A DNA stretch of 32,353 nt, taken from contig JAMONT010000057.1 in assembly GCA_027066455.1 (NCBI GenBank), positions 1 through 32,353 on the forward strand. The letters are read 5' to 3'. Below are positions 434-29,626 of this stretch, in pieces. Within the stretch, counting starts at the first letter, position 1. Every line of letters starts with the position of its first letter. Source of the stretch: Candidatus Altimarinota bacterium. GTDB taxonomy: Bacteria; Patescibacteriota; Gracilibacteria; BD1-5; UBA6164. The notes below the pieces were generated by a model. It saw only the letters and a program-made list of their open reading frames with translations. It searched no databases and had not been told where the DNA came from. A program made the position numbers and the translations under genes.

Positions 434-1639
434 ATGCAAAAATACAAAACATTTATAATTTTTATAATCCTAACAGCCATTTGGAGTAGTTTATTTTCTA
501 CAATAAAATATTTTTTTTGGTGAGATTTGAGTAATTGAATTGCTCCAGATTTACAAGTTTTATCTGGATATTTGAGTTTATGAGGAATTTTGGCTTACCT
601 TTTAGGCTGAGCTTTGGCCTATACTTTTTTGAAAAAATATTTACTTTTTTCTTTTTCTTTTTTGACTCTTATTTTTGTAATTATTGCTTATTTTTTTCCT
701 ATAAATTCTACATTTAGTTTAGCTTTTATAATTTCTGGAATTTGATTTTTTTATTGATTATGGGTAGTTCTTAGAAGTATTTTAGTTTCAATTGAAATAC
801 AAAAAACCTGACTTGAAGATACAAAAATAAATGGAATAATTTCAATTGTTTTTATAGTTTTTTTAATAATTTGAACAATTGTTTGAAGTAAAATTTTTGA
901 AATTTTTTGACATGAATGATTTTTAATAATTATTTTTTTACTTATTATCTCTAGTATTGTTTCACTTTTTTTAGATTATGATAATATTTCTTTAAAAGAT
1001 TTATTTAAAAATGGTTTTAAAAGTTATAAATTAGAAAGAACTCATAAATTGAAAGTTGCTCTGAAAAATTATTTTCCAGAATTAAAATATATTTTCAAAA
1101 ATTTTTCTTTTATAATTATTTTTTCAAGTATTATCTGGTCAGTTTCAACAGTAGTTTCTCAAAAGGCTGTAGAATATAGTGTTGAAACTTTTCAAAAATT
1201 ACCTAGTCAAGCAGCTTATTTGCTTTTATACTCTAGTATTTGAGCAATTTTGTGAAATATTATTTCAAGTTTTTTAGGAAAATATAGATGGAAAAGTTTT
1301 TTTGTTTTAAATATTTTTCTTTGAATTTTAATAATAATTTTTCCATTTTTTAACCAAACATTTTTTCAAGTTTGAATAATTGCATTTTTAGTTTGATTTG
1401 TTTTTTGAAGTTCTACAAATTTAATTGATTCTTTTTATTTAAGTAAACTCTGAGAACAAGACAAAAAAGAATATGGTAGTGCAACTTATGGACTTATTTT
1501 TTCAATAATTTTGTTTGCAATAATGTTTATTTCTAGCTATATTGATAAAAATTATTGATTTGACAAATTAATGTACATTTTATGATGAGTAATTTTACTT
1601 GTAAATATTTTAAATTTTAAAAAATTTTTATGAAAATAA
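434..1639 (+). CDS. MFS-type transporter, LplT-like candidate lysophospholipid importer
   Basis: A 401-residue, strongly hydrophobic protein of about 11-12 predicted membrane spans, the size and organisation of a major facilitator superfamily carrier. It starts MQKYKTFIIF; TGA codons encode glycines throughout the membrane helices. The stop TAA (1637-1639) overlaps the ATG of the next gene (1630), so the two are translationally coupled. That neighbour is a PlsC-type acyltransferase with an acyl-carrier domain. In many bacteria an MFS flippase (LplT) is encoded with or fused to such an acyltransferase (Aas), so the likely job is to move lysophospholipid across the inner membrane for re-acylation. 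The MFS assignment rests on hydrophobicity, length and context, not on a read signature motif, and the substrate is inferred. Confidence 0.68.
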
Positions 1640-2808
1640 TAATCCTAATATACAAATTCTTTTTAAAAAGAAGATATAAGTTAGAAATAAAAAATACAGA
1701 AATTTTAAAACATAATTGACCTGTTTTACTTTTACCAAACCATGTGGCTTTAGTAGATCCACAAATTTTGATAACTTTTTTGGACAAATATCTGAACCTT
1801 TCTCCAGTAGCAAGTGAAAAATTTTTTAATGTGCCTATTTTGAAACAAATAATGACAGCCTTAGAAACAATTCCAATTTGAGAAATGGAAGCTTGAGCTG
1901 ATACTGAAAAAGTAAAAAAAGTTTTTAATGATGTAACAAAAGCATTAAAAAACTGAAAAAATATTTTGATTTATCCTTCTTGAGAAATTTATAAACAAGG
2001 TTTTGAAAGTATTATCTGAAAACAAGCTGTTTATAATATTGTAAAAAATATGCCAGAAAATACTAAAGTTGTTGGGTTGAGACAAAAATGACTTTGGTGA
2101 AGTATGTGGAGTAAGGCTTATAACTGAGGAAAAACAGGATTTTTTGCATTATTTTGAAAATGAGTTTTTTATGTTTTTGCTAATTTAATATTTTTTGTTC
2201 CAAAAAGAAAAGTAAATCTTGAATTTGAAGATATTACAAAGCAAATAAATTTGTATAAAAATATGAGTTTGTGAGAATTTAATAGTTTTTTGGAGGATTT
2301 TTTTAATACAAACCCTTTAAAAATTATCCCATCCCAACCTTCCCTTAAGCCTAAGGGAAGGAGTAATAAGTTTGAAGAAAAAGCTACTTTTGTAAAACAT
2401 TTTTGGTTTTATAATGATGTAAAAAACAAAAAAGAACCAGAAATTATAGAATGAAGTTTAAAAGATTTGAAAAATACAAAAAATCATGATTTGAGTCAGA
2501 TAGATGAAAAAATAAAAAATAAAATTATTGAAAAGATTGTGTTGATAAAAGAAATAGATAAAAAAAATATTTTAGAAAATTCAAAATTAATAGTAGATTT
2601 ATTTTTTGATAGTTTGGATTTAGCAGAAATAAAAAGTTTTGTTCAAGCTAATTTTTCTTGAAGTTCTAATACTCCAATTACTGATTTAAAAACCGTTTGA
2701 GATTTGATAATTATGGCTGTAGGACAAAGTGAAAATGTTGAAAAAATGAAAAATTGTGAATGGAAAAAATTTAATGAAAAAGGTAATTTGCTCGATAAGT
2801 TGGTTTAA
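1630..2808 (+). CDS. PlsC-type acyltransferase fused to an acyl-carrier domain
   Basis: 392 residues. The N-terminal half is a lysophospholipid/glycerol-phosphate acyltransferase: the catalytic HxxxxD motif is seen as NHVALVD (His about residue 38). A second conserved block, YPSGEIYKQG, matches the PlsC substrate-binding region (EGTR-like). A C-terminal domain of about 90 residues (roughly 300-390) resembles an acyl carrier protein; its DLFFDSLDLAEI segment puts Ser328 in the place of the phosphopantetheine-bearing serine of the D-S-L motif. The ATG overlaps the end of the MFS gene. It probably re-acylates imported lysophospholipid with an acyl chain carried by its own ACP domain; no AMP-ligase domain is present, so the source of acyl groups is unclear. 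The linker between domains contains a GC-rich palindromic repeat read in frame (2323-2367). Confidence 0.8.
2323..2367 (+). repeat. GC-rich palindromic element, type B, embedded in a coding sequence
   Basis: Core inverted repeat TTCCCTTAAG/CTAAGGGAAG, with a CCCATCCCAACC arm. It is nearly the reverse complement of the copy at 19476-19517 and related to the one at 23775-23820. Here it is translated in frame as IIPSQPSLKPKGRSN within the interdomain linker of the acyltransferase-ACP protein. Its base composition is far from the AT-rich surroundings. Confidence 0.85.
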
Positions 2809-13422: not shown

Positions 13423-14016
13423 TTATTTTTTTATAACTAATCTAGTTCATTCTGTACCACATGTAATTGTAGAGCCTCAAGTTGATACACATTCTAAAGA
13501 AGCTGCTGTAATTGCTGCACTTACTACTGTATTATTACCACTATTATTAGAATCTAGATCAATTCATAATTCAATTCTAGTATCATCATCTCAACCATCT
13601 CATTTAGCTTTTTTTTCTATATTTCAATCTTGTTCAAAAGTAGCTGAAATTTCATAATCCTGACCTGGTATAGTATTTTTGTCTTGACCTACTGTATAAA
13701 TATAATCAAATGCTGCATTAGTTCTAGAACTTCAAGATTTCGGATCTTGTGGAAGTTTAGGAGTATATGTAGTTACTCAAGAAAATGCGTAATCACCTGC
13801 ATTATTTGAGTTAGGATATTGATCTTTATCTTGATAAAATTGCTCTATTCATGACTGAACAGCTTTTATATCAGTTATTCTAGTTGAATCTCTAGCTTTT
13901 TGAATTTGACTTGTATATACAGATACAGCACCTGTAGCCAATATTCAGATTATTGTGATTACTACTAATAATTCTATTAGAGTAAAAGCCTTTTTTGTGT
14001 ATTTACTTTTTAACAT
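13423..14016 (-). CDS. type IV prepilin (major pilin-like)
   Basis: 197 residues. The N-terminus is a textbook class III prepilin signal: a short basic leader MLKSKYTKKA, then FTLIELLVVITIIGILATG, with Glu at position 5 of the mature protein. Prepilin peptidase should cleave before the Phe. The globular part has a pseudopilin-like pattern (YYQDKDQYP-type segment FYQDKDQYPNSNNAGDYAF). It ends with a Cys pair (LECVST and TITCGTEG) that may form the C-terminal disulfide loop of type IVa pilins. It is single-copy with its own terminator and an inverted repeat in its leader. In episymbiotic CPR bacteria such pili mediate host contact or DNA uptake (known for related lineages; inferred here). Confidence 0.93.
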
Positions 14017-19537: not shown

Positions 19538-22009
19538 CTACTGCACACCAATTCTATATTCTATTTCTTTCCCTACAAAAGCTACATCTCTACCATATTT
19601 TAATCTTGATAATTCCTTCATTGCTTTTGCTATTTTTTCATCTCAAGTTTCTAGGTATGGATTTATTGGAATTATTGAAAATCCTCAGGTAGGTTGATTA
19701 TCCACAAAAAGATTAATTGCAGCCTTGAATTTGTCCATATTAATTAAATCTCTATCAGAAAAATTTGGAGCCATTTCTTTAGCTAAAAATTCTGCATCTT
19801 CTGGCCCAATTTTATACATCATTTTTGTTCAAACATTACCAAAAATTGCTGTTTTTAGATTAACACTTGATTTACTAAGAGAATCAGATTTCTCTAATTG
19901 TCATAAATATTGATGTCAAATATTAAGTGAAAGTCTATATTTTCTGGCTTCTGATAAAATTGATTCAATTGCATCAGTTACATAGTTTTGAAATTCATCT
20001 ATATATAAGAAAAAATCTTTTCTGTCTTTTTTAGCAATTTTATCTCTTCTCATGGCAGCCATTTGCAATTTTGAAACTAGCACCATTCAAAGAAGCTGAG
20101 AATTAATATCTCACAAACTTCATTTACTCAAATTAACAAAAAGAATTTTTTCTTCTTGCATTATTTCTCAAATATTAAAACTAGATTTTGTTTGACCAAT
20201 AATATTTCTCATTGTAGAATTCGTAATAAATTGACCAAATTTTGCAGCAAAATAAGGAATAATTTCTTGTTTTTCTCTATCTCACATTGAAGCATAAGTA
20301 TTTTCCCACCAAGATTTTACTATTGGATTACTTACATGTCTTGTTCTTTCTTTTTGCCAAGTTGGGTCAGTAAAAAGCCTTACTAAATCAGTAATTGCAG
20401 CTCAACCAGGATATTCCATCAAAGCTAAAACTCAGTTTCTAAAATAATCTTGAAGTCTAGGCCCAAAAATTTCATTACCAAAAAGTTTTATCATAATATT
20501 CAAAGCATCTTGAGCAACCAAATCCATTTCACTTTTATCTTGAATTTCAAGTAAATTAAGTCACATCGGTCTTGAAACATCTGTTGGATCAAAAAATATC
20601 AAATCATCAGCTCTTTCTCTAGGAACAAATGGCAACAAATCTTTTGCCAAATCTCCATGAGGATCTAAAACTCATATTCAGCTTCCATTAGCTAAATCTT
20701 GTCTAGCCATAACTTGCATAACTGTAGTTTTTCATGTTCAAGTTTGCCCAATTACATAAAAGTGCCTAAATCTATCTTCTGTTTTTAGTCTCACTTCCCT
20801 TTTTACTCATCTATAAATATTGTGTCAAAGCAAAATTCACTCCTTTGGAATATTTGAAGGAGCTCTAACAATTTTGAAATTTTGCCATTTTATTTCTGGA
20901 GTTTTATTATATTTTGTATGAGGAAAATGGAAAAGACTTGATAATTCTTCTACATTTAAAATAGATTTTTTGAAAAATAAAACAAGAGGTTTTTTGAAAT
21001 ATCTATAAATATAATTTTTTATTAATTTTTTATCATTATGGTATGTAGTAGAGGAAAATTTATTAAAATCTGGATATGCAAATTGAGCAAAAGCTCCTGA
21101 AATATTTTTTAATTCAGACTCTATAATTCTCAAATTATTTCAAGCTGTAATTATTCTAATAATTACTTCATAACCAGTTTTGTCAGCCTTTTCATCAACA
21201 GTTTTTGCTCTTTCTTGAGTTAAGGCACTTGTTCTATTTTCTTCACCTTTTGGACTTTCTTTATCTTCCCCATTACTTGTAAATAAGGCAAAACCCCAAG
21301 AAAATATTTTAAGCAAAAATTTGAATGGATTTAAACTCATTCAATCTTTTGTTCATTTCATTATTTCACTTGAAACTCTTGAAGTTTTTGTTTGCCAATC
21401 ATCATCAACAGGTCTCAAAAGAATTTGAATAACAGCAGATTCATCTTCTTCTAATTTTGAAATAGAATTAGTAATATTATTAATAGGATCACTTTCTAAT
21501 TTTTGGTAAGTTTTGATTGGATAAAAATAATCTCTTGATAAATAAAGTTCAGTTCAAAGTGAATATTTTTTTCCTTCAAAAATATTTTTTTCAAGAGTTT
21601 CTTCAATAATTGCATCAGGATAAAATCAATTTATCTGTTTTTCAATTAATTCTTTATATTTTTTTGGTAAAACTACATAAAAATAAATTTCATTTTTATC
21701 AGCAACATATTCAAGTGAAATCAAATCTTGACCTAAAAGTTTTGAAGAAATTGAAGAACTAGAAATACTTTTTGCTGAAGTTAAAAGTTGTTCCATTATA
21801 GAAATTTTTTCTTTGAAATCTTTTGCTGTTTCATTTTTTTCATCTTGATCAGATTCTTTTTTTGGCATTGTAACCATCAAAAAACACAAATCTAAAGTTC
21901 TTTTTTTATTTACTTTTGTTCTATATAACCACAAAATAGCCTGAACAATTACAAAAAGTAAAATTATTCAAGTTATGAAATTTAAAAGTCCTGTGACAAA
22001 TGGTGTCAT
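19538..22009 (-). CDS. VirB4/TraG-like P-loop ATPase (type IV secretion / DNA transfer family)
   Basis: 823 residues. An N-terminal membrane helix (about 6-27) is followed by a large N-terminal region to about 410. The ATPase core has Walker A GQTGTGKTT at about residues 421-429 (two of its glycines are TGA) and FFLYIDEFQNY with Walker B acidic residues Asp671/Glu672. It also has VLDPHGDLAKDLLPFVP, a conserved block of the CPR T4SS-like ATPase/TraM-recognition family, and sensor-like NIGHQYLGQL. Homologues are near-universal in CPR, often with type IV pilus or conjugation-like genes, and are thought to move DNA or proteins across the envelope; the substrate is unknown. It ends with TAG. The next gene upstream on the strand is uvrC, 155 bases away. 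Confidence 0.88.
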
Positions 22010-27763: not shown

Positions 27764-28960
27764 TTATTTTGTATCTAAAATATCTAACATTTTATAAATG
27801 TAATCAGAACCTTTTTTTATAATATTAGCTCATAAATATTTTATAATAATATCATCAGAATCATCAAAAGGAACTAAGTATATTCATTTCATAGTAGTTT
27901 TTTCATATCACTGAATCCTATAAAGAATAGTTCAAGTAGAAGTATTTTCCATAAAAATTCAATAATCTTCATTTTTAAAATCAAAAATAAAATCATTAGT
28001 TGTAGGATTATCTGAAAAACTCAAAACTCAAGAGTCATTTTGTAAATATCCAATTTCTCAACCTGTTGAACTATAATTGTAAGATTCTAATTCTAATAAT
28101 TCTCAATAATTTTCAAAACTATTTTTATCAAATTTTACAATTTTTAAATCTATTTTTTCATCTACATCAAAATATAAAATTCAAGTAGAAGTATTTCAAA
28201 TTTTTACATTTATATTATCATTATTATTTGTATTTTCATCTATAATTTTATTTGTTTTATAATTATTCCAAAAAACATTTATAAGTCAAGAATTAGGATA
28301 AATATAAGAATAATTTACTTTTCTAGCTTTTACATCATCATCTTCAAAAGCATTTCACAAATTATCATCTGGATAATCTGTTCAAGAGCTAACTGTTCAA
28401 GTTGAATTAGTTCTATAATTATCACTATTAAAATCATCATCTATACTATCAATTCCACCTAAACCAGCTCCATTAAAATTTATTTTTGTTGTATCAGAAT
28501 CAGAAAATTGTGTTTCAAAATTTAATCATCAAATATCTACTAAAAGTTCCTTTTCAGTTTTATAAATAGCTCAAGAAAAATTTGCATAATCATTATCAAA
28601 AAAAATTAAAAAATCATCTCATGAATAAGTTCAATAACAATAAGCATTTTGCGAAGAAGTTGGTGAATATAAACTAGTATTATTAATTCAAATATTTACA
28701 TTTCAACTCATAGTAACACTATTTGGACAAGAAAAATTATCAGTATATCAATTTCAATTTGAATTTAATTCTTTAGTGTATTTTATTGCCAATTTTCACT
28801 TGGAGTAAATTGTACTAAGTAAAATAGTATCAATATTTTCTATTTTTTTATAATATCTAAGAGTTGAATTATTATTAAAAACAATCATTCATAAAAACAT
28901 AGTTATTATAACAAGTATCAAAATATAAATCAAAATACTTGCTTTTTTATTTTGTTTCAT
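27764..28960 (-). CDS. large exported protein with prepilin-like N-terminus (PilX/minor pilin-like)
   Basis: 398 residues. A short basic leader MKQNKKAS and a hydrophobic helix ILIYILILVITMFLGMIVF resemble minor pilins of the PilX type, which lack a strict Glu5. The remaining 360 residues are Asn/Ser/Thr/Asp-rich with Gly (NNTSLYSPTSSQNAYCYG, DSIDDDFNSDNYRTNSTGTVSSGTDYPDDNLGNAF). This composition is typical of a surface-exposed beta domain, and two Cys may form a disulfide. It is 9 bases downstream of the pseudopilin gene at 28970, clearly one operon. Probably a pilus-tip or adhesin-like minor component. Confidence 0.75.
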
Positions 28961-28969
28961 TTAAAAATA

Positions 28970-29626
28970 TTAAAAAATTAAAACTAATTTAAAAAATTCT
29001 TTTTTATCTATATTTTTCCATTCTTCTCAATCTAAATTATAACTATAATTAGGAACTAATTCAAGTTCTAAATTCAAAATTGTATTAGAATTATATGTAC
29101 CTACCTGAAAATCTTTTGTATAAATTCCTTCAAAAAGCTTATCTTTGTAAATTTTATAATCATAAATTTTTTCTGGATTTGTTCCAATTTCTGCTAATCT
29201 ATTTTGAGATAATTCTGAATATCACAAAAGTTTTTCTCAATATTTTCCATAATCATTATCAAATTTCATAGTATCTTTATTTACTATTCAAATGGCAATT
29301 CAAAAAGTTTCTTTTTCATTTTTTAGAAGAATTATATCACTTCAAACTCAAACATCAAAGCTTTTTACAAAAGAATATTTATAAAAAGCTTCTGAAAAAT
29401 TTTTCATTTTTGCATTAAAACTAGAAAAACTTAAAAAAAATTGAGTTTTTTCTTTTGACTCTTTAACTTCTTTCAAAGAATCAACTATAAAACCAAACAA
29501 AAACATAAACAAAATACTACTTATACTTATTGCAACAATTGTTTCAACTAATGTAAATCAAAAAATATTTTTATTATTTTTTAATTTTTTATCCTCAAAA
29601 TTAATTTTCTTAAAAAAAGATTTCAC
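28970..29626 (-). CDS. type IV pilus pseudopilin / minor pilin with GTG start
   Basis: 218 residues. The frame has no ATG before the prepilin motif; GTG at 29626 (KSFFKKINFEDKKLKNNKNIFGF) is the best start, although no RBS is present. The class III signal is clear: leader ending in Gly (NIFG) then FTLVETIVAISISSILFMFLFGF, with Glu5 retained. The Gly before the cleavage site is a TGA codon. The globular part has little else recognisable. It is followed by the PilX-like gene and opposed by a third pilin-like gene across a 63-base divergent region. Confidence 0.85.

Follow-up and report, generated by a model that had tools for sequence, protein, structure and literature searches.

A PlsC-type acyltransferase with a built-in carrier domain, probably one half of an Aas-type system for lysophospholipid reacylation that is split in a Gracilibacteria-type CPR genome

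The MFS and PlsC-ACP genes

Here, we describe an MFS carrier gene and an overlapping gene for a PlsC-type acyltransferase that ends in an acyl carrier protein (ACP) domain (PlsC-ACP; Table 1). Both lie in the window, which is the entire contig C57 (32,353 bases); the draft genome it belongs to comprises 1.49 Mb and is 97.7% complete. Close relatives bearing names are mostly 'Candidatus Gracilibacteria' MAGs, and the preliminary description, made from the letters alone, was right in assigning the DNA to a CPR host. Reading frames were open only with TGA read as Gly (code 25), as in Gracilibacteria and SR1. The standard code (code 11) was tried and rejected: it left no ORF of at least 80 aa across the MFS/PlsC-ACP region, and all frames were recovered with code 25. 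Elsewhere in the window, inspection by eye also picked out proteins resembling prepilins, with an N-terminal FTLIELLVVI or FTLVETIVAI stretch, and a large ATPase, putatively of the conjugation/secretion type (13423-14016, 27764-29626, and 19538-22009 cover both).

Table 1. Coordinates of the features described, numbered from the first base of the window
Feature	Position	Strand	Details
MFS carrier, predicted cassette transporter	434..1639	+	code-25 ORF, 401 aa, 22 in-frame TGA
PlsC-ACP protein (P0001)	1630..2808	+	code-25 ORF, 392 aa, 15 in-frame TGA
PlsC-type acyltransferase domain (aa 1-231)	1630..2322	+	PF01553, E 4.9e-13 to 1.5e-12, above cut-off; 5kym
Catalytic NHx4D motif (N37, H38, D43, P44)	1738..1761	+	invariant in 53 homologues
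Acyl carrier protein domain (aa ~284-366)	2479..2727	+	phmmer, family profile, alignment, predicted structure
Ser328 codon, predicted 4'-phosphopantetheine attachment site (D-S-L)	2611..2613	+	invariant Ser
Low-confidence C-terminal tail (aa 367-392)	2728..2805	+	pLDDT 58-73

The PlsC-ACP gene starts 10 nt before the MFS gene ends (1630 versus 1639), which bears out the coupling of the two genes first proposed, and an identical 10-nt overlap was found in a relative (G002). Pfam MFS_1 scored just below its cut-off on the MFS protein (32.6 bits versus 33.4; E 5.5e-8). Its AlphaFold model (pLDDT 85.9) has the MFS fold (Z 37 to SLC37A4 over 366 residues), and a fold search with this model returned general MFS carriers only. 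At E<=1, no match was obtained in NCBIfam with the protein, or among PDB sequences with the protein and its profile; hmmsearch and hhalign detected no relationship to the MFS domains of fused homologues from other phyla (see below). As for the suggested LplT-type carrier, the MFS fold is present; unlike the carrier of Escherichia coli LplT/Aas, the window MFS has no sequence link to LplT detectable in these three comparisons. The gene lies at or close to the cassette in most relatives. Our guess is that it carries a lysolipid or another amphiphile, possibly as an LplT-like flippase.

The AlphaFold model of the PlsC-ACP protein has a mean pLDDT of 90.8, and its first 250 residues match Thermotoga maritima PlsC (5kym, Z 14.5). 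The motif and the fold of PlsC/LPLAT acyltransferases are thus both found, alongside the PF01553 match, in agreement with the initial reading of the gene. The best curated NCBIfam match of the PlsC part was PRK08633 / PRK06814 (E 4e-21). On the NCBIfam Aas model, the window protein (74 bits) and the ligase of the same genome (420 bits) did not reach the cut-off of 1221, but this full-length model is inapplicable because of the split and the ACP domain.

The carrier domain had been proposed from its D-S-L motif (residues 327-329), which is weak by itself, as DSL arose in 8.7% of shuffles of the same protein. Pfam PP-binding was silent on the window protein; homologues from other phyla exceeded its cut-off. 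Matches to PDB ACPs were found over residues 292-360 with phmmer (E 0.005), and a family profile matched solved ACPs at E 3e-11. D327 and S328 are invariant columns of the 53-member alignment, and all 75 aligned rows that reach the Ser328 column, the window's own counted, have Ser there. The ACP region of the model (pLDDT 92-98) resembles solved ACPs across residues 289-366; residues 291-366 superpose on T. maritima ACP (6lvu) with Z 11.7 and 1.8 Å over 76 residues, in a four-helix ACP fold. Judged by profiles and predicted structure, the C-terminal domain is a true ACP, and both the proposed attachment serine and the ACP-like fold expected of a structure prediction were recovered. The tail behind it (aa 367-392) marks the point where, in the alignment with fused proteins, these relatives run on into a ligase domain.

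Ligase, phosphopantetheinyl transferase, and relatives

The genome has a single AMP-ligase (contig C9, L035:14071-15675; 534 aa, 22 in-frame TGA) with AMP-ligase motifs intact. Among curated models, its best match is the ligase portion of acyl-[ACP]-phospholipid O-acyltransferase (PRK08633 / PRK06814, E 2e-125), with the acyl-ACP ligase model PRK06334 second (E 6e-103) and CoA ligases far behind (E 1.5e-63); on this ranking, it is of the acyl-ACP-synthetase type. A single Sfp-type phosphopantetheinyl transferase (PPTase; P0003) is encoded on contig C27 (L036:7030-7638). It exceeds the PF01648 cut-off, and its Sfp motifs (GxD, W..KE...K) are conserved, with H68, D85, W120, K123-E124, and K128 invariant (n=10). 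The preliminary description had considered the ligase missing, which it is not, and had named a PPTase in the genome as a check, which succeeded. Both genes lie on contigs other than the window's, and their link to PlsC-ACP rests on relatives.

The closest ligase, that of G008 (L162:790-2574, 81% identical), ends in an ACP domain of its own with a D-S-I motif, which matches PDB ACPs at E 5e-6. A PPTase is also encoded in G008, but PlsC-ACP was not found there; the ACP seems to be attached to the ligase instead. Because of this case, an ACP remnant was sought downstream of the window genome's own ligase, and none was found.

PlsC-ACP was found in 15 of 99 related genomes, the window's own counted. 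In most relatives, the ligase is adjacent to or fused with it, so that the pairing of a PlsC acyltransferase with an acyl-ACP-type AMP-ligase that characterizes Aas is found both there and, through the C9 ligase, in the window genome. In G002, PPTase, MFS, PlsC-ACP, and ligase genes follow one another in that order, contiguous and overlapping; in G009, G023, G031, and G037, the four lie within a few kilobases; and in G058, G065, G070, G074, G076, and G097, PlsC, ACP, and ligase form a single protein of about 850-910 aa (~880). The pair of genes first described as minimal is therefore part of a larger set. In the vicinity of the cassette, permuted papain-like proteins of the C92 type (YiiX/YaeF) were found repeatedly (L028:3180-4478, L025:11648-12946, L026:5024-5722).

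Across the 99 genomes, 14 of the 15 PlsC-ACP carriers have the ligase (p 6e-15), counted at E below 1e-100 since weaker matches are other AMP-ligases or fragments, and 14 of 15 have the PPTase (p 5e-14), although such p-values overstate independence among genomes that are kin. PPTase was not detectable in G097. With the three genes almost always found together, the carrier domain of PlsC-ACP is probably the one that the PPTase serves. Patatin was found in 14 of 15 carriers versus 34 of 84 others (p 1e-4, likewise among kin); its gene adjoins the ligase in G023, G031, G033, and G037 and the fused protein in G076. The window genome (G000) encodes a patatin-like phospholipase on contig C83 (L165:5081-5866; 261 aa, E 1.6e-38), unlinked to the cassette.

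Pairwise identities of PlsC-ACP and ligase are correlated (r 0.88). In a tree of concatenated sequences, the split genes group together (100/99), either as neighbors of the fused CPR sequences or nested among them, and the nearest outsider to the CPR clade is a fused Bacteroidota protein (L091; 100/100). On these sequences, the tree fits an ancestral fusion that split once; with weak support at the node where the fused lineages meet, the events may also have run in the opposite order. In the window's genome, the pieces have additionally moved apart along the chromosome. Among 287 genomes drawn from across the phylum, the window's own was the sole one with a match, and as far as sampled, the set is confined to some close relatives within the class.

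One carrier stands apart in layout. At L034:6514-14442, G054 has PlsC-ACP and a ligase remnant, then an AurF-like oxygenase, KAS III, a second AMP-ligase, an SDR, and a PPTase. In this CPR-class genome without FabB/F-type ketoacyl synthase, the locus seems to encode a pathway of its own, for acyl compounds or hydrocarbons.

The metabolic setting was drawn from single-family searches. No ketoacyl synthase was found in the window's genome or in any carrier, with two weak matches across the 99 genomes, and no PlsY in 19 genomes, 12 of them PlsC-ACP carriers. The cell appears unable to make fatty acids; for an acyltransferase drawing on a cellular acyl-ACP pool, no donor is evident, and a built-in ACP that takes its load from free fatty acids would be a sensible way round this. 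Pfam PP-binding found no ACP over the whole genome, a result uninformative about other ACPs because the model also misses the window's own. CoaE was sought and not found; the PPTase must therefore draw on CoA that is imported or made by another route.

Proposed mechanism and alternatives

We consider it likely that two parts of an Aas-type system for reacylating lysophospholipids, split in this lineage, are encoded in the window: its transporter and its acyltransferase/carrier half. The scheme that follows starts from the domain identities, the presence and co-occurrence of the genes, and the conserved catalytic and carrier residues described above; from these we infer the lysolipid acceptor, the direction of transport, the role of patatin, and all reactions, the last by analogy with Aas and chlamydial LpaT/AasC. 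The Sfp-type transferase of contig C27 would attach phosphopantetheine to Ser328 of the built-in ACP, which the AMP-forming ligase of contig C9 would then load with a scavenged free fatty acid that it has activated. The tethered acyl-ACP would swing to the PlsC domain, and the acyl chain would pass to a lysophospholipid brought to the inner leaflet by the MFS carrier (or the carrier may move another amphiphile). The patatin-type phospholipase encoded elsewhere in the genome may provide lysolipid and fatty acid. Throughout, the tethered ACP would stand in for the free ACP that is supplied in cells with fatty-acid synthesis. Acylation of lysolipids, as first suggested, is retained as likely; of the two acyl sources then offered, the host or a separate ligase, the ligase is found on contig C9, and pre-activation by the host is not required.

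Where the acyl groups come from separates this scheme from a minimal two-gene pair that works without a ligase, on groups pre-activated by the host or taken up as acyl-CoA or acyl-ACP. No ligase lies on the 32-kb contig, and chlamydial CT775 can also accept acyl-CoA (PMC5693948). Yet a matching acyl-ACP-type ligase and a PPTase are present in the genome, and the ligase, adjoining or fused in most relatives, accompanies PlsC-ACP in 14 of 15 carriers; we regard the two-gene pair as very unlikely. About equally improbable is a set whose product is not a phospholipid but a specialized acylated compound (a glycolipid, an acyl-amino acid, or a secondary metabolite). Such a product is suggested by the genes that follow PlsC-ACP in G054 (see above), but this is the sole locus of its kind and its Aas-type ligase is a remnant, whereas other carriers have phospholipase and MFS neighbors and the NCBIfam model that best fits the ligase is one of phospholipid acylation.

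The same enzymes could instead do housekeeping, reacylating lysolipid from lipoprotein maturation or repairing the cell's own membrane, rather than building membrane from host lipid. Several window proteins have lipobox-like N-termini, and E. coli Aas reacylates lysolipid after Lnt (PMC6167442). That the set occurs in just 15 of 99 relatives, though all are expected to have lipoproteins, and that patatin is associated with it, which suggests external lipid, make housekeeping unlikely, if less so than either reading above. Reacylation by the split Aas-type system is also the core of a broader proposal, which we put forward tentatively and at somewhat less than even odds: that a subset of Gracilibacteria-type CPR has a self-contained host-lipid salvage cassette (phospholipase, MFS, ACP-tethered ligase/acyltransferase, and dedicated PPTase), which would be the cell's main ACP-dependent chemistry and, in cells lacking fatty-acid synthesis, a route from stolen lysolipids and fatty acids back to diacyl phospholipids. 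The gene set described here, which would use the phospholipase products lysolipid and fatty acid, is concrete and conserved, and bears on how CPR bacteria obtain their membrane lipids.

Comparison with known systems

As in E. coli LplT/Aas, an MFS gene lies beside a PlsC-type acyltransferase, the AMP-ligase is of the same family, and the same reaction is proposed. In E. coli Aas (719 aa), PlsC is directly joined to the ligase and free ACP is used (PMC11416262), whereas here an ACP domain follows PlsC, and the ligase is encoded apart from both, by a gene of its own on another contig. The curated models PRK08633 / PRK06814 (length 1140-1147) have PlsC from ~413 and the ligase from ~614, with no space for an ACP between them.

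Fused PlsC-ACP-ligase (~880 aa) and MFS-PlsC-ACP-ligase (~1300 aa) proteins were found in Desulfobulbaceae, Lentisphaerota, Planctomycetota, Acidobacteriota, and Bacteroidota. These share domain order and carrier Ser with the window system but are one chain where the latter is split, and their MFS part has no detectable relation to the window MFS. Tandem-fused LplT-Aas proteins are termed uncharacterized in PMC11416262, and in the literature searched, we found no published description of a PlsC-ACP-ligase fusion or of an internal ACP in Aas. By its sequences, the PlsC-ACP-ligase architecture is common to several phyla and not private to CPR, which makes the CPR form a new Aas variant. Internal-ACP Aas proteins, present in several phyla, are apparently an uncharacterized class, in which tethering could free reacylation from the cell's free ACP pool. 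According to PMC7242380, no enzymes that produce or require ACP were identified in its CPR genomes, a statement with which the window's PlsC-ACP set contrasts; PMC12455944 describes an acpP gene transferred into Patescibacteria.

In Chlamydia, split LpaT (CT775) and AasC (CT776) act on host fatty acids and lysolipids, and the accessible parts of the two sources make no mention of an ACP domain in C. trachomatis LpaT (PMC6167442, PMC5693948). An acyltransferase that is separate from the acyl-ACP synthetase, in a bacterium that depends on a host, is shared with the window system; unlike here, CT775 and CT776 are consecutive, and Chlamydia's own fatty-acid synthesis supplies ACP. A Chlamydiae MAG (L141:812-3518) encodes PlsC-ACP and an adjoining separate ligase, split as in the CPR relatives, on a long branch in the tree.
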